Below are positions 3,577 through 33,210 of a stretch of DNA of 61,120 bases, in pieces. A model generated the notes under the pieces. That model made no database searches, was not told where the DNA came from, and saw only the letters and a program-made list of their open reading frames with translations. Numbering within the stretch: position 1 is the stretch's first letter; every line of letters begins with the position of its first letter. The DNA is from Alistipes sp. (GTDB lineage: Bacteria > Bacteroidota > Bacteroidia > Bacteroidales > Rikenellaceae): positions 1 to 61,120 of the forward strand of contig JAFVSV010000013.1 of NCBI GenBank assembly GCA_017503575.1, read 5' to 3'. Made by a program: the position numbers and the translations under genes.

Positions 3577-4749
3577 TTACTCTTCTGCGGATGATGGGTT
3601 TACGTTAATCTCTACGATATCGGAGTAGTGGCCTACGCTACGGTCACTCCCTGCATATACCACTACGCACACCTCATATATGGTATCAGGCTCTGGGTTA
3701 TCGACTATAAATCTTGTCTCGAAGCTACCATCCTTGGTTTTAGCAATATCGTGGAGTCTCCACTCCTCGCTACCTTTTGGACGATAGCATAGCTTAATCT
3801 CTTCATTGTACCTTTTATATTCGGTGTTGTAATCCTTTGATGCCACGCCATCGTAGAAGATATCCACCTTGTCAACATGTGCCGTAATACGGCTGTCGCC
3901 CACATTCTCGATACCATCCAGCTCATCAAATATCTCGAGTGAGAGTTTAGGCGTAGTGATCTCTACCTCTATCTCGGCGTTGGATGTTGTAAAGTCACCC
4001 ATCATCACTACATCGCCATACACAGGCTCCTCAGGAATCAGACTCTGTTCGGGCAATACTCTTATGGAGTACTGGTACATTGTTGAATAGGCAAGGTAGT
4101 CATGACCCTCCGCTGGTAACTCCATAACAAGCTGTCCATCAACAATCTCTTCGGCATCATACTCTGCCTTTACCCACTCTTCATTTGTATAGCCGTGTCT
4201 ACGATACTTAAGCTCAATGCTTCGCAGTGGATGAGGCTCACCATCGGCAGTGTAGCTCATATTGTCAAGGGTTATCGTTGCGAACAGGCCACGCGACTCT
4301 ATATTTAGGTCGTAGTCAAATTCACACTTTGGGTCTTTTTTAGTTGTCCCGAATGTGAAATCATCGCTTGTAGCCGAGTAGTCGTAGCGCTCATCCTCGA
4401 TATAGATGCGTGCTGCATACTCGGTCATTGGGGCGAGCTTATAGAGCTTGAAAACCACCAAGCCGTCACGCATACCATACTCATCCTGGAACTGCTCCTC
4501 GCCTACAAAGTCGCCCATGCGTGCTTCGTAGCCAAGCTTTATTTTCGCCTTGGGGTTATCGTAGCCATCAACGGTCATACGAGGCATAGTGGCAAGAATA
4601 GTCACGTTGGTCTCATCGACCTCAATCTCTACCACCTCGCCAAAGTAGTGTTTAATCCCAGACTCCTTGCTATCGCTGTCGTCCCTCTCGCACGAGGTCA
4701 TCGCAATCGTTGCTACCACAGCCATAAGGCACATAATATACCTTCTCAT
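3577..4749 (-). CDS. Lipoprotein with about three Fn3-like domains
   Basis: The 390-residue protein has a signal peptide ending in the lipobox AMTSC (Cys ~20) and an acidic ERDDSDS tether. The rest resembles three consecutive fibronectin-III-like beta sandwiches at roughly 40-135, 140-255 and 258-385. Each ends with a TxYxxRIYI/VxV-type strand (TEYAARIYI, YQYSIRVLP, TIYEVCVVV). This suits a surface or periplasmic binding protein, with no known ligand. It lies 13 bp downstream of 4763-5770 and is the second gene of that operon. Confidence 0.72.
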   Translation of the reverse strand: MRRYIMCLMAVVATIAMTSCERDDSDSKESGIKHYFGEVVEIEVDETNVTILATMPRMTVDGYDNPKAKIKLGYEARMGDFVGEEQFQDEYGMRDGLVVFKLYKLAPMTEYAARIYIEDERYDYSATSDDFTFGTTKKDPKCEFDYDLNIESRGLFATITLDNMSYTADGEPHPLRSIELKYRRHGYTNEEWVKAEYDAEEIVDGQLVMELPAEGHDYLAYSTMYQYSIRVLPEQSLIPEEPVYGDVVMMGDFTTSNAEIEVEITTPKLSLEIFDELDGIENVGDSRITAHVDKVDIFYDGVASKDYNTEYKRYNEEIKLCYRPKGSEEWRLHDIAKTKDGSFETRFIVDNPEPDTIYEVCVVVYAGSDRSVGHYSDIVEINVNPSSAEE

Positions 4750-4762
4750 AACCTCTCCTTGC

Positions 4763-5770
4763 CTATATATTAAACCTCTTCATAAGCGCCTCTGGCGCGT
4801 ATGAGTCCGATATGAAAGCTCCACTTAGCGTTGCCTTAATGGCGTAACCCTCCTCGTCGCTGCAGTCGAGCGTCATCGCGCATGTGTCGCCCTCCTGGGT
4901 GAATGTCACCGAGCCACTCTGTATGGCGGCATACTCCAGGCCTAACTCGCCATCCACAGTGTCGAAGTACCACGAGCCCCACATGCCATGACTATCGTAT
5001 GTACCTATATTTAATGTGCCATCCTCGACGCTATATGTGCCAGATATTGAGGTGCTACCCTCGGCCAACGCTATCTCGAGCATAAACATTGCACCACTCT
5101 CAGCGCCCTCCTCGCCGTAGTTCTCCATAACGAGTATGTAGGCTCCCGTCTCGCCCGTCTCGGCTACGAACATCGCATTGCTACCTTCGACAGTCACATC
5201 GTTTGTAAGTGTCGTTGAGCGGATAACGTCGCCACCCTCATTTGTTGAGTCAATCTTCGCAAACTTCCCCGAGAAGGTGACATAGTGGGTCTTGCCCTCG
5301 ATAACGGCTGTTAGCTCAGCAGACTCACTCTTTACGACGAGCGTAGCATCGCTAAAGATGACGCCCTCCTCGTCGGTAATAAAGTTACCTTCAGCGTCAA
5401 CCATAATCAAGCCACCTACTGTGCCGTCGATAGTCCACTCTGCACAGCTCTCCGTCATATCGAGTGCGTATGTGCCTTCGGGCAGCTCGCCATCTTCGGT
5501 CACTGGGGCATATAGGTCGAGGCAGTAGTACGAGCCCTCGGTTAGTGACCCACCGCCAAGGTCCATCTTAAACTCGTTCTCGGCAATGATGACCGAGTAG
5601 TTATCCACGCCTGGTGTGAACTCATCGCCCCAGTACTCCACCAATAGGTACTTCGCCTCCATGCGTACATCGTACTCCTCTGGCTTTGGAGTATCACCCT
5701 CATTTTGCTTGTCACACGCTGCACAAAGTAGTGTTAGCGCAAGTAGTAGAAATAGATTTCTTGTTCTCAT
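4763..5770 (-). CDS. Lipoprotein with two tandem beta-sandwich repeats
   Basis: The 335-residue protein has a signal peptide ending in LLCAAC (Cys ~19), then a DKQNEGDTPKPEE tether. Two similar halves can be aligned: residues ~35-170 (YSVIIAENEF, then PEGTYALDM, then YVTFSGKF) and ~180-325 (YILVMENYG, then ISGTYSVED, then IKATLSGAF). This suggests an internal duplication. No family or ligand is recognised. It is the first gene of an operon with 3577-4749 and lies downstream of both a near promoter (5815-5846) and a distal poly-G promoter (6102-6132). Confidence 0.74.
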   Translation of the reverse strand: MRTRNLFLLLALTLLCAACDKQNEGDTPKPEEYDVRMEAKYLLVEYWGDEFTPGVDNYSVIIAENEFKMDLGGGSLTEGSYYCLDLYAPVTEDGELPEGTYALDMTESCAEWTIDGTVGGLIMVDAEGNFITDEEGVIFSDATLVVKSESAELTAVIEGKTHYVTFSGKFAKIDSTNEGGDVIRSTTLTNDVTVEGSNAMFVAETGETGAYILVMENYGEEGAESGAMFMLEIALAEGSTSISGTYSVEDGTLNIGTYDSHGMWGSWYFDTVDGELGLEYAAIQSGSVTFTQEGDTCAMTLDCSDEEGYAIKATLSGAFISDSYAPEALMKRFNI

Positions 5771-5814
5771 AGCTTTTATTTTTTTAGTTTGTAATTTCCA
5801 GAGTTTCGTTTATG

Positions 5815-5846
5815 CAAAGTTAGATTATCGCCACTCTATGCACAAA
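5815..5846 (-). promoter_or_regulatory. Proximal promoter of the 5770-3577 lipoprotein operon
   Basis: The minus strand has TTTG (5846-5843), a 20-base spacer and TAACTTTG (5822-5815), about 45 bases before the start codon at 5770. The operator array 5889-6003 begins 42 bases upstream of the -33 box, a position that suits an activator. Confidence 0.72.
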
Positions 5847-5888
5847 TTTTGAAGGCGAAAGTTTTTCCGTGACCACTGCAAATATGTG

Positions 5889-6003
5889 CTGATTATCAAT
5901 GTGTTATGCTGTGCAAAAATATTATTTTTTCATATTGCTGATTATCAACGAGTTACAGCGCTGCGCTTTTGCTTTGCTTTTAATGCGCTGATAATCAGTT
6001 GCG
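5889..6003 (-). promoter_or_regulatory. Operator-like array 1, three copies
   Basis: The plus strand shows CTGATTATCA at 5889 and 5938 and CTGATAATCA at 5988, with offsets of 49 and 50 bp. Copy 2 continues as ACGAGTTAC. The array sits directly upstream of the promoter at 5815-5846. Its geometry matches arrays at 8807-8934 and 15858-15976. The rest of 5771-6256 holds the two promoters and the second poly-G repeat; I see no gene in it. Confidence 0.68.
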
Positions 6004-6091
6004 TATACTTATATTACGTTTATTCTTTTGTTTTTTGACATACGCTATCTTGGTTATTATACACAAATTGCATCTATCTGTTCTTACCTTG

Positions 6092-6147
6092 TTTTCGCCT
6101 ACAAATTTACCCCCCCCCATGAATTTTCCAAATTTTCGAGCAGAAAA
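6092..6147 (-). repeat. 56-bp promoter-bearing repeat, copy 2
   Basis: Second copy of the element at 3415-3470, with one mismatch and the same orientation and the same nine-C run (6110-6118). It lies 320 bp upstream of the lipoprotein operon that begins at 5770. Confidence 0.85.
6102..6132 (-). promoter_or_regulatory. Distal poly-G promoter of the 5770-3577 operon
   Basis: The minus strand has TTTG (6132-6129), a 19-base spacer ending in nine G (6118-6110), then TAAATTTG (6109-6102). It is identical in all key positions to the promoter at 3425-3455. Transcripts from here would run through the operator array and the proximal promoter before reaching 5770. Confidence 0.7.
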
Positions 6148-6171
6148 GTGAGTGCCCATACCTTATTTATA

Positions 6172-6202
6172 TTTTATGAATATCCAATTATATATATATT
6201 TG
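6172..6202 (+). promoter_or_regulatory. Candidate promoter of the ECF sigma operon
   Basis: TATATTTG at 6195-6202 fits the -7 consensus. A weak TTTT replaces TTTG at 6172-6175, 19 bases upstream. The sigma-factor start is 55 bases downstream. The region is AT-rich, so a chance match is possible. Confidence 0.45.
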
Positions 6203-6256
6203 TTATGTGGATGTCAGGTATTCGAGATATTGGCGTAATAGGGGTAAAGAGTTTTA

Positions 6257-6736
6257 ATGATGGAGAGCCGAGAGTTTGAAATATTTGTGCAACGCACGCG
6301 TGACGAGATGCTTCGTACGGCTTGTCACTACTTGCCTCGTAGCGATGAGGCCGAGGATATCGTGCAGGATGCCCTCGTCAAGCTCTACGCCATACGCCAC
6401 CGTCTCGACGAAGGACGCAGTGTTGAGGCACTCGCAAAGGTCATTGTGCGAAATATGGCAATTGACACTCTCCGTCAGCGTTCACGTCATCCTGTTATAC
6501 CCATGCGCCCCGACCTCTCGGACGCTGGTACAATTGAGGTTGATGAGCGCCATGCCGAGCTACTGAGGGTTATCGAGACACTCCCCTCGAAGCAGCAACT
6601 TATACTTCGTATGAAGCATATCGACGGTATGGAGGTCGAGGAGATTGCCGAGACGCTTCAGATGAATATAGATGCTGTATACCAAAACCTTAGCCGCGCA
6701 CGACGTGCCGTACTTAACAAATTTAAGAAGAGTTAG
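6257..6736 (+). CDS. ECF-type RNA polymerase sigma factor
   Basis: The 159-residue protein has a sigma-70 region 2 (residues ~8-75, with DEAEDIVQDALVKLY and a helix ending RNMAIDTLRQRS) and a region 4 helix-turn-helix (residues ~110-155, LPSKQQLILRM, then MEVEEIAETLQMN, then VYQNLSRARRAV). The lack of other regions and the short length are typical of ECF sigma factors that redirect RNA polymerase to a small regulon. Two ATG codons are adjacent (6257, 6260). The next gene begins two bases after the stop, so it is probably the cognate regulatory partner. Confidence 0.93.
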   Translation: MMESREFEIFVQRTRDEMLRTACHYLPRSDEAEDIVQDALVKLYAIRHRLDEGRSVEALAKVIVRNMAIDTLRQRSRHPVIPMRPDLSDAGTIEVDERHAELLRVIETLPSKQQLILRMKHIDGMEVEEIAETLQMNIDAVYQNLSRARRAVLNKFKKS

Positions 6737-6738
6737 CA

Positions 6739-7218
6739 ATGAAGAGTAGAGAGCAGATAGCAGAGCTTGTTGAGAAGTTTCTCGATGGGCGTACAACAAA
6801 TAGTGAGGAGCGCGAGCTCTATGCGTGGTTCGGCTCAGCAGAGGTGCCCGAGGAGTGGAGTGACCTTAAGGCCATGTTCGCGTGGTACGAGGCGGGTATG
6901 CCCGAGCAGAAGCTGTCGAGGCAAGCCGAGACGCCTCGCAGCAGACGCTCGATGTGGCTTACCATAGGTTCTGTGGCAGGCATTGCAGCATCTGTGGCGC
7001 TCATCATAACACTTATACTACCAGACGTCGATGATTATGTCGATGCGACACACCTAAAGCATCAGCAGTCAGATATTTATAAGGGTAGTTACATTGTTGA
7101 GCATGGAGTGCGTAGTGATGACTTGTCCTATATTGAGGGGGATATTGAGGAGCTTCTGGAGCGTGCCGATAATCTCGAGCAGCGTGCCGACGAGCTTCTT
7201 GCGTGGGCAGACATATAG
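6739..7218 (+). CDS. Single-pass membrane protein, possible anti-sigma factor
   Basis: The 159-residue protein has a cytoplasmic helical N-terminus (residues 1-70), one transmembrane segment at ~72-94 (SMWLTIGSVAGIAASVALII) and a short extracytoplasmic acidic, leucine-rich C-terminus (ELLERADNLEQRADELL). The topology and the two-base gap after the sigma gene suit an anti-sigma factor. No anti-sigma family motif is recognised, so this is inference from context. Confidence 0.7.
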   Translation: MKSREQIAELVEKFLDGRTTNSEERELYAWFGSAEVPEEWSDLKAMFAWYEAGMPEQKLSRQAETPRSRRSMWLTIGSVAGIAASVALIITLILPDVDDYVDATHLKHQQSDIYKGSYIVEHGVRSDDLSYIEGDIEELLERADNLEQRADELLAWADI

Positions 7219-7261
7219 AATGGCAGTACTGTAAAGAGGTTAAACATAAACAAAAACAGTG

Positions 7262-7663
7262 ATGAAAAGATTATTATTAGTAATGGCTCTTCTTGTTGCG
7301 GGAGTCGTCGAGAGTAGCGCGCAGAAACATATTGACGCGTTGCTAAATAGAGATATTGGTGGTGTGCAGAGTGGCTATCAATGCACCAAGCGAATAGCTG
7401 TCAAGCGTGACCCTGTGTCTGGAGAGGTTGTCAAGCGTGTGATGGAGGTCGTCATAAACGACAATAAGGGGCTTGCCAAGCAGTTTATCGAGGCATTCAA
7501 GCTCGACCTGCCAACATCCGAAGTATGCGAGGAGCAGCAGAGGGGTAAGACGTATGTGGCTACTGCAGTGTGGCTAAACCCAAAGCGCGTATATAACATC
7601 TCCGTAACGGGAGCAGTAGTAGTCGTCAATATGCAGACGATATATCGCGAGGAGGAGAATTAA
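7262..7663 (+). CDS. Small secreted protein of unknown function
   Basis: The ~133-residue protein has a signal peptide cut near SSAQ (residue ~21). The mature part is a small alpha/beta protein (DALLNRDIGG, CTKRIAVKRDPVSGEVVKRVM, which splits into two strands). The ATG at 7262 is preferred over the GTG three bases earlier. It follows the sigma/membrane pair by 43 bp and is probably part of the same operon. I do not recognise the family with confidence. Confidence 0.68.
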   Translation: MKRLLLVMALLVAGVVESSAQKHIDALLNRDIGGVQSGYQCTKRIAVKRDPVSGEVVKRVMEVVINDNKGLAKQFIEAFKLDLPTSEVCEEQQRGKTYVATAVWLNPKRVYNISVTGAVVVVNMQTIYREEEN

Positions 7664-7684
7664 TTATTCTAAATTGTCAACATT

Positions 7685-8467
7685 ATGAAGAAGATGATAC
7701 TATTTGCCGTGATGTTCATGGCGACAGTTGCATCGGCAGATGCGCAGACAAGAGTCGAGAAACGTACAGTGGGTGAGGGTACTATCGACTATATGGTCAA
7801 GGAGCTAACATGTGATAACCTTAGTAAGATTGTCTCAAATCTCCCCGTTGTGCTCCGCCTTGTAGAGGGCGATGAGGGACATATCGAGGTGAGCTTCCCA
7901 ATGCAGGAGCACCGCTATATTAGATTTGGTATAGTTGACGGCAATACCTTTATTTTAGGTCGTGATGGCTTCCAAAAGAGTCCCAAGAAGAGTATCTTAA
8001 GCGAGGATACACCTATATATATTAATATATCGGCATCGAATATCGCAGCCATAACCAACACATCGGACATGGTTCTCTATGTCGAGCGTGATTGCTTCGC
8101 CGATGAGCTCTCTATTGGTAATGCCGGCTATGGCTTCTTTGTTATCGGTGAGAGCATTACGGCAGATAAGCGCATATCGCTCTTTAGCAATGGCACGATG
8201 ACATGCGAGGTGGAGTCGTGGAATACCGACACGCTCAGCCTAACGAATAACGGCTACCTCTATGTCAATGGCGTGACATCGGCAAGTAGCGTAAGGCAAA
8301 TTAGCACGGGTATAGATCGCACAACGCTTCAGGTCGATTGTGAAAAGGTGGAGGTACATACCAATGGTGAAGGTCTTATAACCTATCGTGGTTGGGCTGA
8401 TGATGTTGCGGTGTACTCCAATAATAAGGCGAGTGTTCGCACCTCGGAACTTAAGGTGAAACCATAA
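7685..8467 (+). CDS. Secreted GIN-domain-like (DUF2807-like) protein
   Basis: The 260-residue protein has a signal peptide cut near ADAQT, then a repetitive right-handed beta pattern in which short strands recur about every 20 residues (MVLYVERDCFADELSIGN, FVIGESITADKRISLFSNG, LSLTNNGYLYVNG). This resembles the head GIN domain found in many exported Bacteroidetes proteins. The enzymatic role, if any, is unknown. It ends the sigma-factor operon and is followed by a clear terminator. Confidence 0.65.
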   Translation: MKKMILFAVMFMATVASADAQTRVEKRTVGEGTIDYMVKELTCDNLSKIVSNLPVVLRLVEGDEGHIEVSFPMQEHRYIRFGIVDGNTFILGRDGFQKSPKKSILSEDTPIYINISASNIAAITNTSDMVLYVERDCFADELSIGNAGYGFFVIGESITADKRISLFSNGTMTCEVESWNTDTLSLTNNGYLYVNGVTSASSVRQISTGIDRTTLQVDCEKVEVHTNGEGLITYRGWADDVAVYSNNKASVRTSELKVKP

Positions 8468-8488
8468 GCAGAGCAACAAATATTGTCG

Positions 8489-8521
8489 ATATAGGGTGGC
8501 ATGCGTGCCGCCCTATATTTT
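8489..8521 (+). terminator. Terminator of the sigma-factor operon
   Basis: A 13-bp stem (ATATAGGGTGGCA with TGCCGCCCTATAT, one G-T pair) with loop TGCG is followed by a short T-run. It lies 21 bases after the stop of the GIN-like gene. Confidence 0.78.
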
Positions 8522-8522
8522 G

Positions 8523-8741
8523 CTATATACAAAAAAAAGAGCTGCGTGGGCAACATCGTTCATTTAGACGAGTGCAGCACGCAGCTACGGACACACACAT
8601 ATATACATTAACCAAATATATCTCTTTGTACCTTCCGATGTTGGTACATCTCAAAAAGACCATATTCTTAATATCGCTCATCGTCTCACTCTCCTCCTCT
8701 AATCTGCCTTGACGAGCGACATTTCCCACATCACAAAGATA
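8523..8741 (-). ncRNA. Candidate small transcript or small protein gene
   Basis: A promoter, a strong ribosome-binding site (GAGGAGGAGAG) and a terminator line up on the minus strand. An ATG at 8681 opens a 52-codon frame (MSDIKNMVFLRCTNIGRYKE..., with paired cysteines AACC and RCC near the end). Its stop at 8523 lies beyond the terminator T-run, so the full protein would not be made from a terminated RNA. A 10-codon frame also starts at ~8728. The product may be a ~200-base RNA or a short peptide. The rest of 8468-8928 holds the plus-strand terminator and the operator array. Confidence 0.5.
8531..8586 (-). terminator. Terminator of the minus-strand small transcript
   Basis: The minus strand has AGCTGCGTG pairing with CACGCAGCT across a 29-base folded loop, then C and eight T at 8538-8531. 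The stem is perfect and the T-run is long, so this is a good intrinsic terminator. Confidence 0.75.
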
Positions 8742-8765
8742 GATGGTTAATACGAAGCAACCAAA
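8734..8765 (-). promoter_or_regulatory. Promoter of the small transcript
   Basis: The minus strand has TTTG (8765-8762), a 20-base spacer and TATCTTTG (8741-8734), a full consensus match. An operator-like site (TTGAAAATCA at 8807) begins 41 bases upstream of the -33 box. Confidence 0.72.
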
Positions 8766-8806
8766 AAAACCGTGAAAAAAGATTTCCCCAAGCACTTTGT
8801 AACAGC

Positions 8807-8934
8807 TTGAAAATCAATAAGATGAAAAAATGAAATTTGAAAAATTTTCACCACGCTGATAATCAGTGAGTTACGAGCCTTCAAATCTGCGTGCTCGAAT
8901 ATCTGTGTAAATTACTGAAAATCAGCGATTATCT
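8807..8934 (-). promoter_or_regulatory. Operator-like array 2, three copies
   Basis: Plus-strand sites are TTGAAAATCA (8807), CTGATAATCA followed by GTGAGTTACGAG (8856) and CTGAAAATCA (8915), with offsets of 49 and 59 bp. The third site extends into the last codons of the TPR-HTH gene that ends at 8929. The layout matches arrays 1 and 3. Confidence 0.66.
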
Positions 8935-10713
8935 GTCTATGATTCCCGAAATAAGTATTTCGGCGTCTGGAGCGTTGCACTCCTTGATTTTTGATTTGAT
9001 ACGATATTTTATCTTTGACAGAGCCACGGGATTGCTCTCCATAAAGATGCAAATTGCACGCGAAGAAAAACCAGCATAGCTATATAACGCTACTCGTTGC
9101 TCACGGCTATTGAGCTTGGGGCACTGCTCGCGGAGCTTCGACATAAGCCCGTTACGGCAACTATCGACAAGACTCTCCAACTCGGCCAATCGCTGCTCGT
9201 CGCTCTTGATAGACTCGATGGTCTCGCGTACACGCTCAAAGACTTTTGTCGCCTGGCGCGAGGTGTCGCTATGCTCATAGTAGGTCTCACACAGGTGGTT
9301 GAGAACCTCCAATCTATCGTTATACAACCTATCGACAGCCTCGGTCAGCGGCTTCGACTCTCGATCGTTGGTTAGTCGCAGTTCGTTGATAGTCGCCATG
9401 TAGTTGGCTATATCGCGGCTCATCTTATTCCAGCGGTGTTTTATGTATATGGCTATGCCAACGATGATTATAGCTATGGTAATTATGATACTAATATTCA
9501 CTTTGCGCTCGTGCTCTTCTACCTCCTTGGCATGGCGTATCTCCTGCTCGCGGTTACGATTGAGGAGCTCGCGTTCGGTGCGCTCCGCCTCAAGGTGGCT
9601 CTGCAGCTTACCTATCTGGTAGTTGAGTACGGGGTTGTTGAGCACCATAAGTATAGTGCTATCTTGGCGTTGGTTGGAACGCTCTAACCAGTGAAGCGCC
9701 TCCTTGTCGTTACCCTCAAGTCTATATATGTAGTACTTGGCATAGTCGATAAGTGGCTCATGAGGTACCTTATGGTTCTCGGCGTCATCCAATAGCTGAT
9801 ATGCCCTTCTCATATTGCCCATCTCGGCAGCTACAACGGCCTCGATAGCGAGGTTGTGCGACTCGTCAATAACGGGGCAACTATGGGTTTCGTACATATC
9901 CAAGGACTCCATGCAGGCTTCGATGTCGCCCTGTTGCAGGTATAGCTCCGTGAGAGGATGAAGAATAACCGAAAGGAACGTCTTGTCGTCACTCTCAATA
10001 GCGTAGTCACGAGCCTTCGTCAGCCACATCAGGGCGGTGTCGAGGTCGCGTTTTGCCAATGCCAAACATCCAAGGTTAAAGTGGGCGTACGCCGCGAAGT
10101 CGGCACGCTCGGCACGCTCGAAGCATCGCATAGATACCTCGAACGAGTCGTAGGCATTCTGATATAGGCAGCCGATGCTATATATATCACCCTTTGCCTG
10201 GTGTACAAGACCCTCGAGCATGGGGTTAGGCTCTATGGCCAACGACGCCTCGGCCTCCATATACGCAAGCATCGCCTCGGGGTGGCGTGCTGCCGCATGC
10301 TCCACAAGGCCGTGCTGGAAGTAGGCTCTGGCGCGGCGTCCGTGCTCCTCGCTTGTGTGGTAGTACTCCTTAGCAGCATAGGTGAGCGAGTCGTTGTCCG
10401 AGGCTATGCCCGAAAAGTAGCTCGCCTCGCTGTACACCATATTGTAGTAGGCCTGGCTCTGCTCATCTACGATTGCCGAGCGGTCGATATCTCGAAGAAT
10501 TGCAAGTGCCTTGTCGGGGGAGACCATGGCCAATGTGTCGGCGTTATCTATCTGTTCGATAATATCTTGTGAGGTGCTTGCTGTTATAATACCATCATTA
10601 CCATCGCCACACCCGCTGAGTAGAGATAGGCATGCACACACACTCGCTATAAGCATAGTCCGAGTGACATTGCTTACACCATTTTGTGCATACTCTTTAG
10701 CTCTCCGTACCAT
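8929..10713 (-). CDS. Membrane-spanning TPR-HTH regulator with lipobox
   Basis: The ~594-residue protein has an N-terminal hydrophobic segment with lipobox LLSGC, tetratricopeptide-like helix pairs over residues ~50-370 (AYAHFNLGCLALAKRDLDTA, then LYLQQGDIEACME), a coiled-coil, and a transmembrane helix near 410-430 (IIITIAIIIVGIAIY). A C-terminal helix-turn-helix follows (LNSREQRVALYSYAGFSSRA, then IKYRIKSKIKE), LuxR-like in outline. The likely topology is periplasmic TPR sensor and cytoplasmic DNA-binding domain. ATG 10713 is chosen; a GTG at 10725 would add four residues. It is a paralogue of 15974-17650. Confidence 0.82.
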   Translation of the reverse strand: MVRRAKEYAQNGVSNVTRTMLIASVCACLSLLSGCGDGNDGIITASTSQDIIEQIDNADTLAMVSPDKALAILRDIDRSAIVDEQSQAYYNMVYSEASYFSGIASDNDSLTYAAKEYYHTSEEHGRRARAYFQHGLVEHAAARHPEAMLAYMEAEASLAIEPNPMLEGLVHQAKGDIYSIGCLYQNAYDSFEVSMRCFERAERADFAAYAHFNLGCLALAKRDLDTALMWLTKARDYAIESDDKTFLSVILHPLTELYLQQGDIEACMESLDMYETHSCPVIDESHNLAIEAVVAAEMGNMRRAYQLLDDAENHKVPHEPLIDYAKYYIYRLEGNDKEALHWLERSNQRQDSTILMVLNNPVLNYQIGKLQSHLEAERTERELLNRNREQEIRHAKEVEEHERKVNISIIITIAIIIVGIAIYIKHRWNKMSRDIANYMATINELRLTNDRESKPLTEAVDRLYNDRLEVLNHLCETYYEHSDTSRQATKVFERVRETIESIKSDEQRLAELESLVDSCRNGLMSKLREQCPKLNSREQRVALYSYAGFSSRAICIFMESNPVALSKIKYRIKSKIKECNAPDAEILISGIIDR

Positions 10714-10735
10714 ATCTGCCAACACAATTAAAGCA

Positions 10736-10768
10736 CAAATTTAAGTAAAAAATCTTAAACTCAGCAAT
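10736..10768 (-). promoter_or_regulatory. Candidate promoter of the TPR-HTH gene
   Basis: TAAATTTG on the minus strand (10743-10736) matches the -7 box and lies 23 bases before ATG 10713. The -33 match is only partial (ATTG at 10768-10765, spacer 21). Confidence 0.45.
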
Positions 10769-10847
10769 TTTCGGCACACTATTCTATGTGTTACCCCGAA
10801 GGTTTTTGATGTTTTCGAGATAATTAATAAAAAAATTTCAAAATTAC

Positions 10848-10878
10848 TTTACCATGCCCGATAATTTTTATATCTTTG
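10848..10878 (+). promoter_or_regulatory. Promoter of fba
   Basis: TTTA (10848-10851), a 19-base spacer and TATCTTTG (10871-10878) give a near-consensus Bacteroidetes promoter 62 bases before the fba start codon. Confidence 0.72.
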
Positions 10879-10940
10879 CGGTGTGGAACTTAGGACTATT
10901 TAGAGAATAATTTTTTACTAACAATATAAATTTCTGTAAT

Positions 10941-11939
10941 ATGATTAATTACAAGGATTTAGGTCTCGTGAATACTCGCGAGATGTTCAAGAAGGCAGTA
11001 GATGGTGGCTATGCTATTCCTGCGTTCAACTTCAACAATATGGAGCAGCTTCAGGCTATCATCATGGCTGCTGCTGAGACTAAGTCGCCCGTTATCCTTC
11101 AGGTGTCAAAGGGTGCTCGTCAGTATGCAAATCAGACCCTTCTCCGCTACATGGCAGAGGGCGCTGTTGAGTATGCAAAGGAGCTCGGCTGGGAGAATCC
11201 TCAGATTGTCCTCCACCTCGACCACGGTGACTCTTTCGAGACATGCAAGAGCTGTATCGACATGGGCTTCTCATCAGTGATGATTGACGGCTCACACCTC
11301 CCATACGAGGAGAACGTAGCCCTCACTAAGAGGGTTGTTGAGTACGCTCACCAGTTCGACGTAACCGTAGAGGGCGAGCTCGGTGTATTGGCAGGTGTCG
11401 AGGATGAGGTATCTGCAGCTGAGAGCCACTACACAAAGCCCGAGGAGGTTGTTGACTTCGTAACGAAGACTGGTTGCGACTCGTTGGCTATCTCTATCGG
11501 TACTTCACACGGTGCCTTTAAGTTCACCCCTGAGCAGTGTACCCTCGACCCAGAGACAGGTCGTCTTCTCCCTCCACCATTGGCATTCGACGTGTTGGCA
11601 GCTATCGAGCAGCAGCTCCCTGGCTTCCCTATCGTGCTCCACGGCTCATCATCAGTGCCACAGGATGAGGTTGATACCATCAACAAGTATGGCGGTGCTC
11701 TTAAGGCTGCCGTAGGCATCCCCGAGGAGCAGCTCCGTAAGGCTTCAAAGAGTGCTGTATGTAAGATCAATATCGACTCTGACTCTCGCCTTGCAATGAC
11801 CGCTGCCGTACGCGAGGTGTTCGCCAACAAGCCAGCAGAGTTCGACCCTCGTAAGTATCTCGGTCCTGCTCGCGACAACATGAAGAAGCTCTACATCCAC
11901 AAGATTAAGGAGGTATTGGGTTCGGACAACAAAGCATAA
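10941..11939 (+). CDS. fba: Class II fructose-bisphosphate aldolase
   Basis: This enzyme cleaves fructose-1,6-bisphosphate to dihydroxyacetone phosphate and glyceraldehyde-3-phosphate in glycolysis and runs in reverse in gluconeogenesis. The 332-residue protein has the zinc and substrate motifs of class II aldolases: AIPAFNFNN near residue 25, LDHGD at 93-97, GELGVLAGVEDE, then ISIGTSHGAFK and VLHGSSS. Length is normal for the family. It is monocistronic, with its own promoter and a structured 3' region. Codon use is strongly biased (GAG, CTC, CGT), as expected for a highly expressed gene. Confidence 0.97.
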   Translation: MINYKDLGLVNTREMFKKAVDGGYAIPAFNFNNMEQLQAIIMAAAETKSPVILQVSKGARQYANQTLLRYMAEGAVEYAKELGWENPQIVLHLDHGDSFETCKSCIDMGFSSVMIDGSHLPYEENVALTKRVVEYAHQFDVTVEGELGVLAGVEDEVSAAESHYTKPEEVVDFVTKTGCDSLAISIGTSHGAFKFTPEQCTLDPETGRLLPPPLAFDVLAAIEQQLPGFPIVLHGSSSVPQDEVDTINKYGGALKAAVGIPEEQLRKASKSAVCKINIDSDSRLAMTAAVREVFANKPAEFDPRKYLGPARDNMKKLYIHKIKEVLGSDNKA

Positions 11940-11941
11940 TA

Positions 11942-12067
11942 AATTTGTTGTGATAGCGGTGCATTAGCGACGCTTCAATCAAATCCCCGAATGGGAAATA
12001 CGCATAGTATGTCCCATCCGGGGATTTATCATGTCAGCGCCACTACTGCACCACTCTGACAACAAAT
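11942..12067 (+). terminator. Structured 3' element after fba
   Basis: Directly after the stop, AATTTGTTGT pairs with ACAACAAATT ~110 bases away. Inside is a GAT/CTG internal loop and a second helix (GGTGCA/TGCACC). The apex is a 16-bp hairpin (11981-11996 with 12012-12027, AAATCCCCGAATGGGA type). It probably acts in termination or RNA stability. The outer design matches that after the U32 gene at 45895. Confidence 0.65.
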
Positions 12068-12144
12068 TCTTTTGCTGTGATAAGAGCTCTTTTTTGACCC
12101 ATCTCCAAAGTACAGCCCATCGTTAACAAATTTTCTATCTACTT

Positions 12145-12175
12145 ATTGTCGTTTATGATTTGTTTCGTACCTTTG
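12145..12175 (+). promoter_or_regulatory. Promoter of obgE
   Basis: ATTG (12145-12148), a 19-base spacer and TACCTTTG (12168-12175) precede the obgE start by 27 bases. Confidence 0.65.
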
Positions 12176-12202
12176 CGGGCGTAACATTATATATAATAGT
12201 AT

Positions 12203-13219
12203 ATGGCAGGTTCGAATTTTGTCGATTATGTAAAGATATTTGCGCGCTCGGGACATGGCGGCGCGGGCTCGTGTCACTTCCGTCGCGAGAAGTTTGTGGC
12301 ATTCGGTGGCCCCGATGGTGGCGATGGCGGCAAGGGTGGTAGCATCATCCTTCAGGGTGATAGCCAATATTGGACTCTTATCCACCTAAAGTACAAGCGT
12401 CACCAGTTTGCCGAGGATGGCGAGAATGGCCATGGCGCACGCTCGACAGGTGCCGATGCCAAAGATATCATCATCCCCGTACCCCTTGGAACTGTAGCCA
12501 AGCTGGTGATAACCGACGAGGAGACAGGCGAAACATACACCGAGTTGGTTGGCGAGGTGACAGAGCATGGCGAGCAGCTTGTGCTACTCAAGGGTGGCCG
12601 TGGCGGCCTTGGTAACTGGCACTTCCGTACAGCGACAAACCAGACACCACGCTACGCACAGCCTGGCGAGGAGGGCATGGAGGGCGCTTTTATCCTCGAG
12701 CTTAAGGTGCTCGCTGATGTGGGTCTTGTTGGCTTCCCTAATGCGGGTAAGTCGACGCTGCTATCTGTCGTGTCGGCTGCGAAACCAAAGATTGCGAACT
12801 ACGCCTTCACAACGCTCGAGCCTAACTTGGGCATCGTCTCGGTGCGTGACGACCACTCGTTTGTCATGGCCGACATCCCTGGAATCATCGAGGGTGCACA
12901 CGAGGGTCGCGGCCTTGGAACCCGTTTCCTGCGACATATCGAGCGTAACTCGGTACTACTATTCATGGTACCTGCCGACAGTGACGATATCGCTGCTGAC
13001 TATGAGATATTGCTCGGCGAGCTTACGCAGTACAACCCCGAGCTACTCGATAAGGAGCGACTATTGGCGGTGACAAAGTGCGACATGCTCGACGATGAGC
13101 TTATGGAGCAGATGAAGGCACATTTGCCAGAGGGCATAGAGTCGATATTCATCTCGTCGGTGGCGAACATGAATATCACACAACTTAAGGATATGCTATG
13201 GGCGGCACTCCAGAGATAG
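12203..13219 (+). CDS. obgE: GTPase ObgE/CgtA
   Basis: Obg is an essential ribosome-associated GTPase that takes part in 50S subunit assembly and in stress control. The 338-residue protein has the glycine-rich Obg fold (residues ~1-158, [31 protein letters not shown]) and a G domain with G1 GFPNAGKS (167-174), G2 YAFTTLEP, G3 DIPG and G4 TKCD in place of NKxD. It lacks a long C-terminal extension, as is usual in this phylum. It has its own promoter and a terminator-like hairpin downstream. Confidence 0.97.
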
Positions 13220-13229
13220 CATACCTAAC

Positions 13230-13261
13230 ATGGGGGATGACTAAATTTAGCCATCCCCCAT
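13230..13261 (+). terminator. Terminator-like hairpin after obgE
   Basis: A 10-bp stem ATGGGGGATG/CATCCCCCAT lies 10 bases after the stop. The T-run is weak. It could also serve the convergent minus-strand gene that ends at 13313. Confidence 0.65.
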
Positions 13262-13312
13262 CTGTTTATGAAATTGATGCATGGCGAATCCTTAAAGAAC
13301 GCCACCTCTATA

Positions 13313-14281
13313 TCACAAGCTCTCTTCGTAGTCTACCCACTTGCTTATCTGCCTGCCGTTATAGTCGAAGATAGCGCACTTATCTTTGCAGACAACGATA
13401 CTCCTGCCACTATCTGTTGAGTACTGTACACGGTCGTAGATGGCCTCGATAATCTCGCGGCCACTACGGTCTATAAGTCCCATCTTATTCGCCTTTGAGA
13501 GTACTATGGCACGCCCCTCCATAAAGTCGCCGACAGCCAAGTACCTATCCTTGATGACCATACGGCCATACTCATCCTTGAAGCCTACGCCGTGCTCCGT
13601 GACACAGCGACAGCGCCCATCGTGAAGTCCATCTGTTGTCTGTGGCATATCGCACCACGGCTCCGTTGCCGATAGGTCTACTTTGGTTGTAGGCGTTGTG
13701 TGCTTGAGTATTAGTTCGCGAAGTAGCTCTATGGCGTTGCTGTCGCCACCATAGCCACGCTCGGTATAGTATTGGCGTATAGGTAACCAGCGATTGCTGC
13801 TATCGACGATGATATTGTTGATTGACAGGTTGTTATGGCTGATGTCATAGCTGCGTAACTCGGCATCCAACCTCTCAAGACCTTGCAGCAGCGTCTCGCG
13901 GCTAAGCCTATGGATGGCCGTCTCGAGTAGCTCACCCTCGGGTAATTGCTCCTTGATAAGTGTACATCGTGTGTTGTCACCCAGCTGCATGGTTGGAGTA
14001 TTTAGGTGCTGCATCTCCTCATTGAGTATCTCCATACGCACGAAGCCATGTTTGTATGCCATCATCAGGGCGATATTGGCACGATGCACCATGTGTAGTG
14101 ACTCTTGGTGAATGGGCGCATATAGTAGCGCGTTGGCACCATTATCGGTGATGCGACACTCGGCAAAATACTTCGAACGTGTGAGGGTCTCTATGTGCGG
14201 CTCTATGTTTTTGAGTGTTGTGAGCATCTTGTATGGCATGCTCACGCCGTTGCGAAATTCAAATATTGAGCAGTAGTCCAT
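13313..14281 (-). CDS. Pseudokinase-like protein with C-terminal WG repeats
   Basis: The 322-residue protein has no signal peptide. Residues ~120-195 resemble a protein-kinase catalytic loop: HNNLSINNIIVD (149-160) matches HRDLxxxNxxxx with the catalytic Asp replaced by Asn151. No DFG is visible, although a GYGGDSNAIELLREL segment follows where kinases have their activation region. Residues ~232-315 hold about three WG-type repeats (FKDEYGRMVI, MGLIDRSGREII, AIFDYNGRQI). It begins five bases after the vWA gene stop, so the two are co-transcribed. The kinase link is inferred from pattern; function is unknown. Confidence 0.66.
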   Translation of the reverse strand: MDYCSIFEFRNGVSMPYKMLTTLKNIEPHIETLTRSKYFAECRITDNGANALLYAPIHQESLHMVHRANIALMMAYKHGFVRMEILNEEMQHLNTPTMQLGDNTRCTLIKEQLPEGELLETAIHRLSRETLLQGLERLDAELRSYDISHNNLSINNIIVDSSNRWLPIRQYYTERGYGGDSNAIELLRELILKHTTPTTKVDLSATEPWCDMPQTTDGLHDGRCRCVTEHGVGFKDEYGRMVIKDRYLAVGDFMEGRAIVLSKANKMGLIDRSGREIIEAIYDRVQYSTDSGRSIVVCKDKCAIFDYNGRQISKWVDYEESL

Positions 14282-14286
14282 TATCC

Positions 14287-15144
14287 TTAACGTCTTATAC
14301 TGTCAGAACCTATGTTAACGATGTTGAAGAGTTCACATGGCGATATGTTGTATGCAACCAGTCGACGTACACCTGGCTCTTCGGGCTCGGCGATGGGTGG
14401 TAGCTGATGGTTGATACTCTCGGGAACCTCGCTCGACATGGTGTACAATGTGTACATGCGCTCCGACGAGTTGCGTCTGTCGAGAGTATACGGAAAGAGG
14501 ATGCTACGCTCGCAATAGTCGTCGCCCGAGCCGATGTGCACGTTTATGAAGAGCGTCTTGCCATCGTTGGTGCCAGTGCTCTTTATCTCCTGCGCTATGC
14601 TGATAAGCTCCTGCGGGCCACCATCCGTAGCATGGCCATCGGTGATATGGAATACCATTGGTGGAAAGCTGTCGTAGTGCTCATGTATTGAGCACCACTC
14701 ATCTACCAATCTGTATACCTCGGTGAGAGCCTCATACATGGGCGTGCGACCCTCGGCCTGCTGCTTTATCCACTCGTTGACAATGAAGTTGGCGTATGTG
14801 GTGCCCGACTCGAGGCGCTGCTCGAAGCAGTATTCGCGTACCGAGGGGTGACGCTTCTCGAGGTCACTGATGCTCGAGAACTCGATGTGCTCGCCACCAA
14901 GCATATTAACTATCTCTTCACCGCCATAGCCGATAACGGCGATATCGAAGTAGTCGCGTATACGGTTGTAGCGTGACGAGCGTATGTATAGCTCGTCTAT
15001 CATAATGTTTGTAATCATCGCCACAATCTCCGCCTTACTCATCTGTCTACCGTTGAACTCGACATACTCTTGCATCGACGTCGAGCAGTCCAAACAGAAT
15101 ATCACTGCCGAGCGATGTTGTTTGGTAATCGCCTTCTTATACAT
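14287..15144 (-). CDS. Cytoplasmic vWA-domain protein (TerY-like MIDAS)
   Basis: The 285-residue protein has a von Willebrand A domain with a complete MIDAS metal site: DCSTS (19-23), the TPMYEAL threonine (134) and ITDGHATD with Asp169. The order and the TPM motif resemble TerY-type vWA proteins, which sit with kinases and PP2C phosphatases in TerY-P stress modules. No signal peptide is present, so it acts in the cytoplasm. The partner gene downstream is the pseudokinase/WG protein, and no phosphatase is nearby. Residues 180-285 extend beyond the vWA fold. Confidence 0.78.
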   Translation of the reverse strand: MYKKAITKQHRSAVIFCLDCSTSMQEYVEFNGRQMSKAEIVAMITNIMIDELYIRSSRYNRIRDYFDIAVIGYGGEEIVNMLGGEHIEFSSISDLEKRHPSVREYCFEQRLESGTTYANFIVNEWIKQQAEGRTPMYEALTEVYRLVDEWCSIHEHYDSFPPMVFHITDGHATDGGPQELISIAQEIKSTGTNDGKTLFINVHIGSGDDYCERSILFPYTLDRRNSSERMYTLYTMSSEVPESINHQLPPIAEPEEPGVRRLVAYNISPCELFNIVNIGSDSIRR

Positions 15145-15216
15145 TTATATGGGTAGGGTAGTTTGCTTTTGTTATCGCCTTATTACTATCTCATGATGTC
15201 GCTACATATCCAAGTA

Positions 15217-15256
15217 GTGCCCTTATTATAGAGATCTTCATTATAATTAAGGGCAC
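15217..15256 (-). terminator. Hairpin between the DUF3244-like and vWA genes
   Basis: GTGCCCTTATTATA pairs with TATAATTAAGGGCAC, with one bulge and an 11-base loop. It lies downstream of the gene ending at 15356 and upstream of the vWA gene. No T-run follows, so termination is not certain. Confidence 0.5.
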
Positions 15257-15355
15257 ATTAGGATAAGTATAGATAACATCACCTTTCTCTGAAACACTAA
15301 TTGGTTAGTCAGTAATGACTGCGAAATGAATGTTATCGAGATAGACCATCACTTA

Positions 15356-15751
15356 CTATATGACAAACTCGCCAGCGTAGTCTCCGCTATCCGTTGTTAT
15401 ATATATAGTGTAGTATCCTTCGCTATCCGAGATGTAGAGTGTTGATACACCCATACCATTGGTATCATCCAACCACATCTCACCGGTCATATTATTCGTA
15501 ACGGTAATATCCGCATTGCCAAGATCACTATTGAACACAATAGATAGTGTTCCAGCATAGTAGGTCGCCTCAACATCCTGAACTAAAGATAGCGGAATAG
15601 GCTTGTTAATAGGGGGCTTTGGAGTTGGGATGGGTGGCAATGGGATGTAGATAGGTACATCATCATGATCACAACTATTCTTGGATGATACATCCTGCAC
15701 CATGAAACCTGTGCATGCTAACAATAAGATTGCAAGTAGAGTTTTTTTCAT
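15356..15751 (-). CDS. Small secreted DUF3244-like protein
   Basis: The 131-residue protein has a signal peptide (KTLLAILLLACTGF), a proline-rich linker (PLPPIPTPKPPINKPIP, residues ~37-53) and a compact beta-sandwich (residues ~60-131) with IVFNSDLGNADITV and YYTIYITTDSGDYAGEF. The layout fits the DUF3244 family of small exported Bacteroidetes proteins, whose function is unknown. It lies downstream of the TPR-HTH regulator 15974-17650, with operator array 3 between them, so it is a likely regulatory target. Confidence 0.72.
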   Translation of the reverse strand: MKKTLLAILLLACTGFMVQDVSSKNSCDHDDVPIYIPLPPIPTPKPPINKPIPLSLVQDVEATYYAGTLSIVFNSDLGNADITVTNNMTGEMWLDDTNGMGVSTLYISDSEGYYTIYITTDSGDYAGEFVI

Positions 15752-15782
15752 AATTGATAATATTTGATATGTTTTTATTCCA

Positions 15783-15816
15783 CAAAATTATAGTAAAATT
15801 TTATGATAATTGCAAA
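15783..15816 (-). promoter_or_regulatory. Promoter of the DUF3244-like gene
   Basis: The minus strand has TTTG (15816-15813), a 22-base spacer and TAATTTTG (15790-15783), 32 bases before the start codon. The spacer is longer than ideal, as can occur at activator-dependent promoters. Array 3 begins 41 bases upstream of the -33 box. Confidence 0.6.
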
Positions 15817-15857
15817 TTTTTAGCCCCAAAATCTTCACCCTCGCCCAATAGAATATG

Positions 15858-15976
15858 CTGTAAATCAGAGAGTTGTGGATTGTCAATTATAAAAATCTTC
15901 ACCCCTCTGAAAATCAGTGAGTTACGAGTGTTGATTTTCAGAAGGGGTGGTAGCCTGTGTATAATGCTGGATATCA
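15858..15976 (-). promoter_or_regulatory. Operator-like array 3, three copies
   Basis: Plus-strand sites are CTGTAAATCA (15858, then GAGAGTTGTG), CTGAAAATCA (15907, then GTGAGTTACGAG) and CTGGATATCA (15967), with offsets of 49 and 60 bp. The third overlaps the stop codon of the regulator gene. The middle site is inside a hairpin (15901-15916 with 15932-15948, ACCCCTCTGAAAATCA type) that may also terminate the regulator transcript. Confidence 0.68.
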
Positions 15977-17650
15977 GTGTTTTTTGTTGCTGAGATAGGA
16001 TGTCAGGAACTCAGCATCCTCGGAGTGACTTTGTTTAATCTTCTCTCGTATGCCATACTTAATTTTGGGCAGGGTTTCAGCCTTGCACTTAACGAGCATA
16101 CATATAGAGCGATTAGATAATCCTGCGAAGGAGTAGAGTGCGATACGTTGCTCTCGCTCGGTAAGAGGTAGATTGAGGGCGCGCAGCTTTGACATAGCCC
16201 CATTATTAAAGAGGTTGACTGCCTCCTCCAACTCCCTGAGCGTCTTACCATCTTGACGCAGGGCTTCAATTTGGTTGGTTACATCGGCAACGATGTTGGC
16301 GACGTAGCGTGGTGAATCATGGTGTTCATAATAGAGCTCACAAAGGCTATTGATATCATTAAAACGTTGGCGATACAATCTATCAACGACCTTAGACATC
16401 TCCTCACTGCGATTGTGTTCATGACACGCAACCTCCAACTCGGAGATGACATTTATGTATGCTTGCTCTTGGAGCTTATGTCTCTTGCGCTTGTGGTAGA
16501 AATATAACAATAGTATAATCACGAATAGTGCCGTAGCTATTGCGCAATATATGTAACGCAATCTAATCTGCTCGTTTAGTTTTTCGCGATATATGATATC
16601 TTTTTGCAGAAGCTCAATTTGAGTATTCAACACACTCTGCTCAATAGCATCCTGCACATGCCCATCACTCTCTATGATATTATCATTGTACTGTGACAGA
16701 GCCGCCTTATAGTCACCTTGCAAGATATGTAGTTTAAGACGGACATAATTGGCATAGTAAGGCAAGAGATCATTATTGGTCATGGAGATATCATACAACT
16801 CCTCTGCCTTGACGAAATTACCATTATATGCCTCATACACAGCTCCAATAGCATAGTAGTTACCTATCGAACCGTCGACGCAATCCGCTAAATCTATACG
16901 CAAATATGCCTGCATAAACTTATCCGTATCACCCAACTCTAAATAGGCGTAACATAGCCTAATCAGTGAGTCATATACGAGATACCTATCCCCCAACTCG
17001 GCGGCGACCCTCTCACAATGCTCCAGTAGCTCGATACCCTCCGTATAGCGACGCACTGATAGCATATTGCATGCTGCTAAGTAGGAGCTATAAAGTGCAT
17101 GATGTGATAATCCCGCGCTGTCAAAACACTTAATAGAGAGATTGTAGGCATCTAACGCATTGGTTAAAAGATACTCACTACCATATATGGTACCCATAGT
17201 GCGATACACCAGACCCTCAAGGCGCTTATTATCGCAGCACTTCAATGATTTCTCGGCCTCTAAGAGCGAGTACATAGCCTCGGCATTCTCACCTTGGTTG
17301 TACTTAACCAGCGCATGTTGGTACATTGCTCGTGCGCGCAGTGGGTGGTTCTCGGTGTTGTTGAGATAGTAGTTATAGAGTGGTGCTGTGAGGCTATCGT
17401 TGTCGACACCCATTCTGTTGTAGTAAGCGGCCTCGCTGTATACCAAGCGATAGCGTGCCCTATGCTCATCATCATGAAGGGTGGAGGGGTCGATGCTGCG
17501 TATAATGGTAAGTGCCGAGTCGGGACGCTCTTCGAGAAGTTGTTCGGCTCTATATATAAGCTCCGTGGTGTGATCATTGGAATTACAGCCAACGATAAGC
17601 ACAACGAGACATATAGGGATTATACAACGCATTAGTCTCATAGGTACCAT
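15974..17650 (-). CDS. Membrane-spanning TPR-HTH regulator with lipobox
   Basis: The 558-residue protein is a paralogue of 8929-10713. The N-terminus has lipobox LIVGC (Cys ~22), TPR-like helix pairs over ~30-350 (AYYNRMGVDNDSLT, then YRTMGTIYGSEYLLTNALDA), a transmembrane helix near 385-405 (YIYCAIATALFVIILLLYF) and a C-terminal helix-turn-helix (LTEREQRIALYSFAGLSNRS, then IKYGIREKIKQ). It probably senses a periplasmic state and binds DNA in the cytoplasm. A second start, three codons in (17641), is possible. The DUF3244-like gene downstream is a candidate target. Confidence 0.82.
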   Translation of the reverse strand: MVPMRLMRCIIPICLVVLIVGCNSNDHTTELIYRAEQLLEERPDSALTIIRSIDPSTLHDDEHRARYRLVYSEAAYYNRMGVDNDSLTAPLYNYYLNNTENHPLRARAMYQHALVKYNQGENAEAMYSLLEAEKSLKCCDNKRLEGLVYRTMGTIYGSEYLLTNALDAYNLSIKCFDSAGLSHHALYSSYLAACNMLSVRRYTEGIELLEHCERVAAELGDRYLVYDSLIRLCYAYLELGDTDKFMQAYLRIDLADCVDGSIGNYYAIGAVYEAYNGNFVKAEELYDISMTNNDLLPYYANYVRLKLHILQGDYKAALSQYNDNIIESDGHVQDAIEQSVLNTQIELLQKDIIYREKLNEQIRLRYIYCAIATALFVIILLLYFYHKRKRHKLQEQAYINVISELEVACHEHNRSEEMSKVVDRLYRQRFNDINSLCELYYEHHDSPRYVANIVADVTNQIEALRQDGKTLRELEEAVNLFNNGAMSKLRALNLPLTEREQRIALYSFAGLSNRSICMLVKCKAETLPKIKYGIREKIKQSHSEDAEFLTSYLSNKKH

Positions 17651-20500: not shown

Positions 20501-20502
20501 CG

Positions 20503-21684: not shown

Positions 21685-21690
21685 AATACA

Positions 21691-22896: not shown

Positions 22897-22911
22897 ACTA
22901 TGATAATCGTT

Positions 22912-23985: not shown

Positions 23986-23996
23986 TTCTGTATATT

Positions 23997-25202: not shown

Positions 25203-25211
25203 GGGTAGTAG

Positions 25212-25829: not shown

Positions 25830-25841
25830 AACAGTGTGTCA

Positions 25842-26933: not shown

Positions 26934-26948
26934 CGTTATGTTCTCAAA

Positions 26949-29655: not shown

Positions 29656-29660
29656 CTTTT

Positions 29661-30962: not shown

Positions 30963-30979
30963 GGTATTCTGATTTTTTG

Positions 30980-32044: not shown

Positions 32045-32052
32045 AACTATTG

Positions 32053-33207: not shown

Positions 33208-33210
33208 AAT

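Follow-up and report, generated by a model that had tools for sequence, protein, structure and literature searches.

Triple, helically phased operator arrays mark a probable clade-specific envelope regulon in Alistipes with candidate membrane-spanning regulators

The window analyzed here is a 61,120-nucleotide stretch of Alistipes sp. DNA (contig JAFVSV010000013.1, assembly GCA_017503575.1) belonging to a metagenome-assembled genome (MAG) of 1.82 Mb that is 78% complete. It carries three operator arrays, A, B, and C, each with three plus-strand copies of the motif CTGAWAATCA or a near variant upstream of a minus-strand promoter. Array A has its proximal operator at 5889–5898, its middle operator at 5938–5947, with a GTAACTC flank that faces away from the target, and its distal operator at 5988–5997. 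The proximal, middle, and distal operators are at 8807–8816, 8856–8865, and 8915–8924 in array B and at 15858–15867, 15907–15916, and 15967–15976 in array C. Promoter A (5815–5846, minus strand) consists of a -33 TTTG at 5843–5846 and a -7 TAACTTTG at 5815–5822, promoter B (8734–8765, minus) of a TTTG at 8762–8765 and TATCTTTG at 8734–8741, and promoter C (15783–15816, minus) of a TTTG at 15813–15816 and TAATTTTG at 15783–15790. Arrays B and C adjoin minus-strand genes for candidate regulators with tetratricopeptide repeats (TPR), a transmembrane (TM) segment, and a C-terminal helix-turn-helix (HTH)-like domain. The B-type gene spans 8929–10725, with a true start that may lie inside these limits, and the C-type gene spans 15974–17650.

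Operator offsets are 49/50 bp in array A, 49/59 bp in B, and 49/60 bp in C, and a hand count places the proximal copy 42, 41, and 41 bases from the respective -33 TTTG. The original prediction, made from the DNA letters of the window, had given the same site positions, spacings, and promoter distances, and the recount returned them unchanged. It had also assigned three motif copies to every locus and placed the distal copies of B and C over a regulator stop codon. The distal copy of C, CTGGATATCA, is two positions off CTGAWAATCA and was missed by a search allowing one mismatch. The overlap holds for C, where the TGA of the operator is the stop codon of the regulator, but not for B, where the core begins 5 bp past the stop. 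An extra inverted core near array C (15932–15941, minus) is able to pair with the middle copy as a hairpin and is a possible terminator of the regulator gene.

With at most one mismatch allowed and both strands searched (palindromic sites being counted on both), the window has 17 CTGAWAATCA matches versus 7.9 (standard deviation 3.0) in shuffled sequence, and none of 100 shuffles reached 17, a count above chance. Throughout the MAG, CTGAWWATCA occurs 26 times forward and 19 times in reverse, at 38 places, versus 4 and 2 times for the reversed pattern. The extended form TGAWWATCANNGAGTTAC has exactly six occurrences there: three are the middle operators of A, B, and C, and three are those of other promoters built alike; many of the remaining bare cores fall within genes, outside arrays.

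The element that emerges is a composite promoter of three TGAWWWTCA-like operators, a GGAAA-like element, and a -33/-7 promoter, of which the MAG holds nine. Toward the gene the order, with variation, is operator 1 (distal), operator 2 (middle), operator 3 (proximal), the GGAAA-like element, a AAATTTGG-like -33 region, and a TAnnTTTG -7 box. The operator 2 region of the nine reads GTAACTnnCTGATWATCAGCnnnnTGAAAAATT, again with variation, and the promoters measure 151–153 bp from six bases before its GTAACT-like flank to 4 bp past the -7. These nine and 79 promoters from relatives formed the sample of 88 used for geometry, which are not independent because orthologs recur. The middle core matches at 8 or more of 9 positions in 88/88 promoters, the proximal core in 77, and the distal core in 68. 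Spacing is rigid on the promoter side: of the 77 promoters with a good proximal core, 74 have their middle and proximal operators 49 or 50 bp apart, and 69 have 75–77 bp between the proximal core and the -7. Two B-type loci (L086 and L092) have an 11-bp insertion, one helical turn, between operators 2 and 3 and keep the rest.

Distal operators were sought 35–68 bp from the middle core, with ties broken toward 55. The 68 distances fall into classes of 37–41 bp (18 promoters), 48–52 bp (21), 58–61 bp (28), and 68 bp (1), so that 67 of 68 cluster near 39, 50, and 60 bp, which are whole helical turns. All three clusters occur within the window's own MAG (38 and 41; 49 and 50; 59, 60, and 61 bp). 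Shuffled upstream sequence yielded a mean of 4.5 and a maximum of 12 distal cores compared with the 68 found in the 88 promoters. The Rayleigh statistic nR2 was 43 at a period of 10.4–10.5 bp, versus a mean of 1.0 and a maximum of 7.2 in 300 shuffles, each of which holds far fewer distances than the real set. Operator spacing is limited to whole turns, as in phased-operator transcriptional activators, and we read this as protein bound on a single face of the DNA. The genome-wide search proposed with the original prediction therefore bears out a fixed promoter geometry, with distal spacing quantized in helical turns.

The genes downstream share one property. An ATG-started open reading frame (ORF) of at least 60 codons lies within 200 bp of 77 of the 88 promoters, and by a crude N-terminus rule all 77 encode an export-like protein, 45 lipoprotein-like and 32 otherwise hydrophobic, versus 287 of 494 other ORFs of the examined loci (p = 5e-17). 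Array A is followed by a lipoprotein-like gene (4763–5770, minus) with no Pfam or NCBIfam match, whose ortholog in genome G063 and a homologous gene in G064 both have the same promoter, and then by a second lipoprotein-like gene (3577–4749, minus) in the presumed operon. Array C is followed by a DUF3244-like exported protein gene (15356–15751, minus), whose PF11589 match of 22.3 bits (E = 1.3e-4) is under the gathering cut-off of 25. Among eight proteins encoded downstream of TPR-HTH genes in relatives, one reaches 25 bits, three score 22–25, and four have no DUF3244 match. Among the targets elsewhere are one protein that weakly matches BACON, a lipoprotein of the radical-SAM-associated kind (TIGR04134), a group of exported proteins that resemble one another, DUF3244-like proteins encoded after TPR-HTH genes, and, in some cases, a TPR-HTH gene itself. 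The 11 promoters with no such ORF are those of ten B-type loci and the C-type locus of G063. At one locus (L051, C45:14000–18300) an array precedes a run of small lipoproteins, one of them TIGR04134, near two genes that look radical-SAM-like by eye; this is a possible modified-peptide system under array control.

Promoter B opens instead into about 200 bp that hold a predicted noncoding RNA (8531–8733, minus) with a variable 5′ part, a conserved GAUAUAUUUGGUUAAUG...GUGUGUCC box (also written GAUAUAUUUGGUUAAUG..AAUAUUUGAGUGUGUCC), and an intrinsic terminator; the -7 box and the T run were used to place its ends. This is the small transcript of the original prediction, and its conservation is now evident. 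Counterparts in relatives are about 200–310 nt long and begin 195–206 bp past the regulator stop codon, and four of the seven pairs of the terminator stem show changes on both sides. A sequence model of the RNA, R1, finds it in 6 of 61 genomes, in one copy each and always after a B-type gene; it misses the divergent RNAs of G021, G079, and G004, which were found by eye and by the exact box. An exact search places GGTTAATG downstream of 19 B-type genes out of 21 (that of the window and 18 of 20 others); in L090 the variant CGGTAATG is found, and in G082 neither, which brings the box or its variant to 20 of 21. Nine of the ten B-type loci whose promoter lacks a protein target have the exact box, the other being G082. 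A seventh R1 match (G069, L113, E = 4e-4) resembles the box plus terminator, follows an unrelated gene with no TPR-HTH match, and is probably due to chance.

The box carries insertions and deletions of lengths not divisible by three, no ORF common to the sequences was seen, and a coding role was rejected. An Rfam search of window positions 5500–17000 at E ≤ 5 gave no family match for the RNA, and the same search at gathering scores in eight relatives' loci returned only a tRNA. The sole Rfam match in that part of the window is a weak MIR8670 at 11929–12079, far under its gathering score, which we take as chance. In a search for RNA targets by complementarity, TTACATTAACCAAA with at most two mismatches had 11 matches in the MAG, one of them the RNA gene itself, versus 5 for the reversed pattern. 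Of the other ten, three fall in the 55 bp ahead of an ORF that starts with ATG, and two inside the first 20 codons of such an ORF. The three leader-placed matches precede ORFs that, named from their first residues, are acyl-CoA-ligase-like, ribosomal-protein-like, and exported-protein-like, and this search for complementary leaders in the MAG produced no convincing target.

The candidate regulators are represented by four paralogs in the MAG. By eye they begin with a signal resembling a lipobox, continue with TPRs and a single hydrophobic stretch that positive residues follow, and end in an HTH-like domain. Profile searches of 26 aligned family members matched TPR_12 in 20, the GerE/LuxR-type HTH (PF00196) in 4 at E ≤ 0.01 (best 3.6e-4), and DUF6377 (PF19904) in 8 (best 2e-5), the B regulator itself having no DUF6377 match; GerE is not listed for either window regulator at E ≤ 0.001. 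Sequence matches in the Protein Data Bank were confined to TPR or similar helical-repeat proteins, none covering the C-terminal part. A surface polysaccharide cluster, recognized from ORF translations only, adjoins the C regulator at 17758–33729 with glycosyltransferase, flippase, and sugar nucleotide genes.

A sequence model of the composite promoter, R2, was built from 24 promoters, nine of the MAG and 15 of B-type loci. Full-length matches at E ≤ 1e-10 occur in 15 of 61 genomes of the genus, and 17 further genomes have only weaker matches, 3e-6 to 1e-3. Under stricter filters, the matches at E ≤ 1e-8 at the family level came from 5 of 120 genomes, every one belonging to this same genus, and 119 genomes at the order level returned only the window's own matches, with 0 of the 118 from other genera. 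Strong TPR-HTH matches (E ≤ 1e-100) are present in 14 of the 15 promoter-bearing genomes versus 1 of the 46 others (p = 1e-11); the fifteenth, G024, has TPR-HTH fragments, of which one adjoins an R2 place. These results confirm and extend the original finding, the arrays marking a probable envelope regulon that is clade-specific and has three helically phased operators per promoter.

Of the 44 full-length TPR-HTH genes in the 14 genomes, 26 have an R2 match no more than 1 kb away, all on the same strand, compared with 0.58 expected by random scatter; counting fragments, 29 of 59 TPR-HTH matches do. From the side of the promoters, 27 (44-gene set) or 30 (59-match set) of 89 R2 places lie beside a TPR-HTH gene. 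Of the 26 adjacent genes, 12 belong to the MAG itself or to B-type loci and 14 to neither, two of these 14 being orthologs of own loci. Among 39 proteins classed by their presumed recognition region, an array accompanies 24 of 30 with [KR]x[KR][YH] and 1 of 9 with RK[SY]RL (Fisher p = 4e-4). Enrichment beside TPR-HTH genes had been put forward as the outcome that would favor the original prediction, and the arrays show it, together with a link to one recognition-helix class.

Position relative to the regulator stop codon is type-specific. In B-type genes, for proteins 41–53% identical to window B, the cores fall near +5/+64/+113, with an inexact core in some genes; the C-type gene of G063 has them at -2/+18/+58; and in the MAG and in G063 the C29-type gene is flanked by promoters, upstream and about 430–440 bp downstream. 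C90-type TPR-HTH genes have a conserved core pair of their own at +6/+58 in the closer orthologs. A different promoter layout stands before an exported-protein gene at C90-type loci (G000 C90:3163–3224 [L042], L093, L114, L117, and L119), and the core pair and this layout are possibly a sister operator code.

We assign a probability of about 0.7 to the reading that the arrays are bound by membrane-spanning TPR-HTH proteins, which thereby switch envelope genes. On this view the arrays would control an envelope regulon whose members are dispersed, and their palindromic core would suit a dimer. The most likely regulators are the TPR-TM-HTH proteins encoded beside many arrays, with a predicted topology in which an exported, probably lipid-anchored N-terminal TPR domain faces the periplasm, one helix crosses the membrane, and a C-terminal GerE-like HTH lies in the cytoplasm. 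Regulator dimers on three in-phase operators would line up on one DNA face and switch genes for lipoproteins, for outer-membrane-type and DUF3244-like proteins, and for some of the regulators (C29 type), along with one noncoding RNA. The original prediction, that the TPR-HTH proteins or a shared regulator carry a periplasmic signal directly to nearby promoters, is partially supported overall, its association of phased arrays with TPR-HTH genes being the part that stands.

Several observations weigh against this assignment. The first of them also suit another shared transcription factor or a nucleoid protein as the binder, with the TPR-HTH genes mere regulon members or neighbors: no array lies within 1 kb of 18 of the 44 full-length TPR-HTH genes, six of the 18 in the [KR]x[KR][YH] class; the promoter is found only upstream, as of a target, in two genes of that class (G064:C12 and G075:C99) and in the RKSRL-type G016:C25; and paralogs, several per genome, share a single core motif, which leaves protein-to-site assignment ambiguous. 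Part of the adjacency is built in, and the figure inflated for some families, because 19 of the 24 R2 training promoters have a TPR-HTH gene within 1 kb. Co-occurrence of TPR-HTH genes and promoters is confounded by shared ancestry and may reflect one clade, and the GerE and TPR matches of the window regulators are below Pfam cut-offs. The architecture is also imperfect, with all three cores at 8 or more of 9 positions in only 63 of 88 promoters (the distal core falls short in 20, the proximal in 11), and the G063 ortholog of array C (L073 after 5674; L253) keeps array and promoter with a short ORF in place of the DUF3244-like gene. We nevertheless consider another factor rather unlikely, since the cores sit at fixed distances past the regulator stop in B-type, C90-type, and G063 C-type genes and composite promoters track HTH class.

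Equally improbable in our judgment is that the TPR-HTH proteins use the arrays as repression or looping sites and keep the promoters shut until a periplasmic signal releases them, a reading that overlaps with the favored one and differs in the sign of control. In-phase geometry fits looping as well as activation, but the operators lie upstream of the promoter, the usual position of an activator, at a rigid spacing to the -7. An extracytoplasmic function (ECF) sigma factor is encoded beside array A (6257–6736) and shows a weaker form of the TPR-HTH pattern, being present in 10 of the 15 composite-promoter genomes and 1 of the 46 others, a further point against singling out the TPR-HTH proteins. 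It was not found in five of the 15, some of which are incomplete, and the promoters have an ordinary -33 TTTG and -7 TAnnTTTG and no separate sigma-type element; we rejected it as the array reader, a role that is very unlikely. Least credible is that the sites are a scattered repeat (of the REP or MITE kind) or chance. The short palindromic core at 38 MAG places, many inside genes, and solitary sites with poly-G or poly-C tracts would suit a repeat, but constant spacing to one promoter, helical quantization, and export-only targets contradict it.

The ECF sigma factor gene is followed by genes for a small membrane protein and a DUF2807 protein (6257–8467 in all) that read away from array A, and the sigma gene also adjoins the orthologous array in G063. 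In the window, a C run lies upstream of the ECF sigma gene at 6110–6118. Operator-like sites beside runs of at least eight G or C occur in the MAG and in related genomes (L039:3522, L059:1510, L062:1452, and L065:1510), including G014 and G027, which lack strong composite promoters; these could be a phase-variable relative of the element.

ToxR and CadC combine a periplasmic sensor and a cytoplasmic HTH in one protein through one membrane helix, and the TPR-HTH proteins would have the same single-protein sensor-helix-HTH design. Their order is reversed: whereas ToxR and CadC have an N-terminal winged HTH, a TM helix, and a C-terminal periplasmic domain, the TPR-HTH proteins show a signal with lipobox, N-terminal TPR sensor, hydrophobic stretch (by eye), and C-terminal HTH-like, possibly GerE-like, domain. 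SusR and FimS-type proteins are membrane sensors of Bacteroidota. The FimS model weakly matches 10 of 26 family members and the SusR model 1 of 26, but no kinase or receiver domain is among the listed family matches, and the HTH is joined directly to the TPR sensor. The sigma-E-dependent small RNAs RybB and MicA of Escherichia coli offer a parallel in concept, an envelope sensor that drives envelope genes and a small RNA jointly. The regulator type differs here, and the RNA target search described above gave no convincing target. A tentative, bolder possibility is Bacteroidota envelope surveillance with no kinase, anti-sigma factor, or protease, in which membrane-spanning TPR-GerE proteins on triple in-phase operators would switch an exported-protein regulon and a dedicated small RNA, a logic like the enterobacterial sigma-E/RybB one but exerted by direct membrane-to-DNA contact.

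The closest family is BT3442 (NF053779), to which 23 of 26 members are remotely similar along most of their length (best E = 2.6e-25); scores of 34–89 bits, 34.4 for B and 37.8 for C, fall below the family cut-off of 940 bits. The structure 3d33 is that of a DUF3244 protein, and the TPR-HTH and DUF3244-like pair of window locus C resembles the BT_3442–BT_3441 pair. BT_3442 is a TPR protein of Bacteroides thetaiotaomicron clustered with BT_3441, a 3d33 homolog, and with lipoprotein and MACPF genes; the available portion of PMC2954219 describes no array, regulon, RNA, or tested function for BT_3442. The accessible part of PMC10434189 lists DUF3244 and TPR genes in expression tables only. Our literature search found nothing on this promoter, the arrays, the regulon, the RNA, or DUF6377, and no described function for TPR-TM-HTH, BT3442-like membrane sensors.

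For the RNA, the FopS small RNAs of B. thetaiotaomicron are a useful parallel and not relatives by Rfam. According to the part of PMC11697453 available, they repress SusC-like transporters, their transcription is possibly raised by an unknown regulator under membrane stress, and they are said to be deposited in Rfam. FopS and GibS share with the array B RNA a Bacteroidota origin, ordinary promoters, and an intrinsic terminator, and repress outer-membrane transporter mRNAs (PMC11697453, same portion). The array B RNA differs in having no Rfam match, a single copy per genome where R1 finds any, and, judged against that portion, a conserved box that lies toward the 3′ end instead of the 5′ end. 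The arrays supply a regulon, an operator code, and candidate regulators for the TPR-TM-HTH (BT3442-like) sensor class of Bacteroidota and add an RNA outside any Rfam family. From their quantized geometry, operators, targets, and the outcome of operator shifts can be predicted, which opens to experiment the question of how a protein tethered in the membrane reaches several distant promoters.

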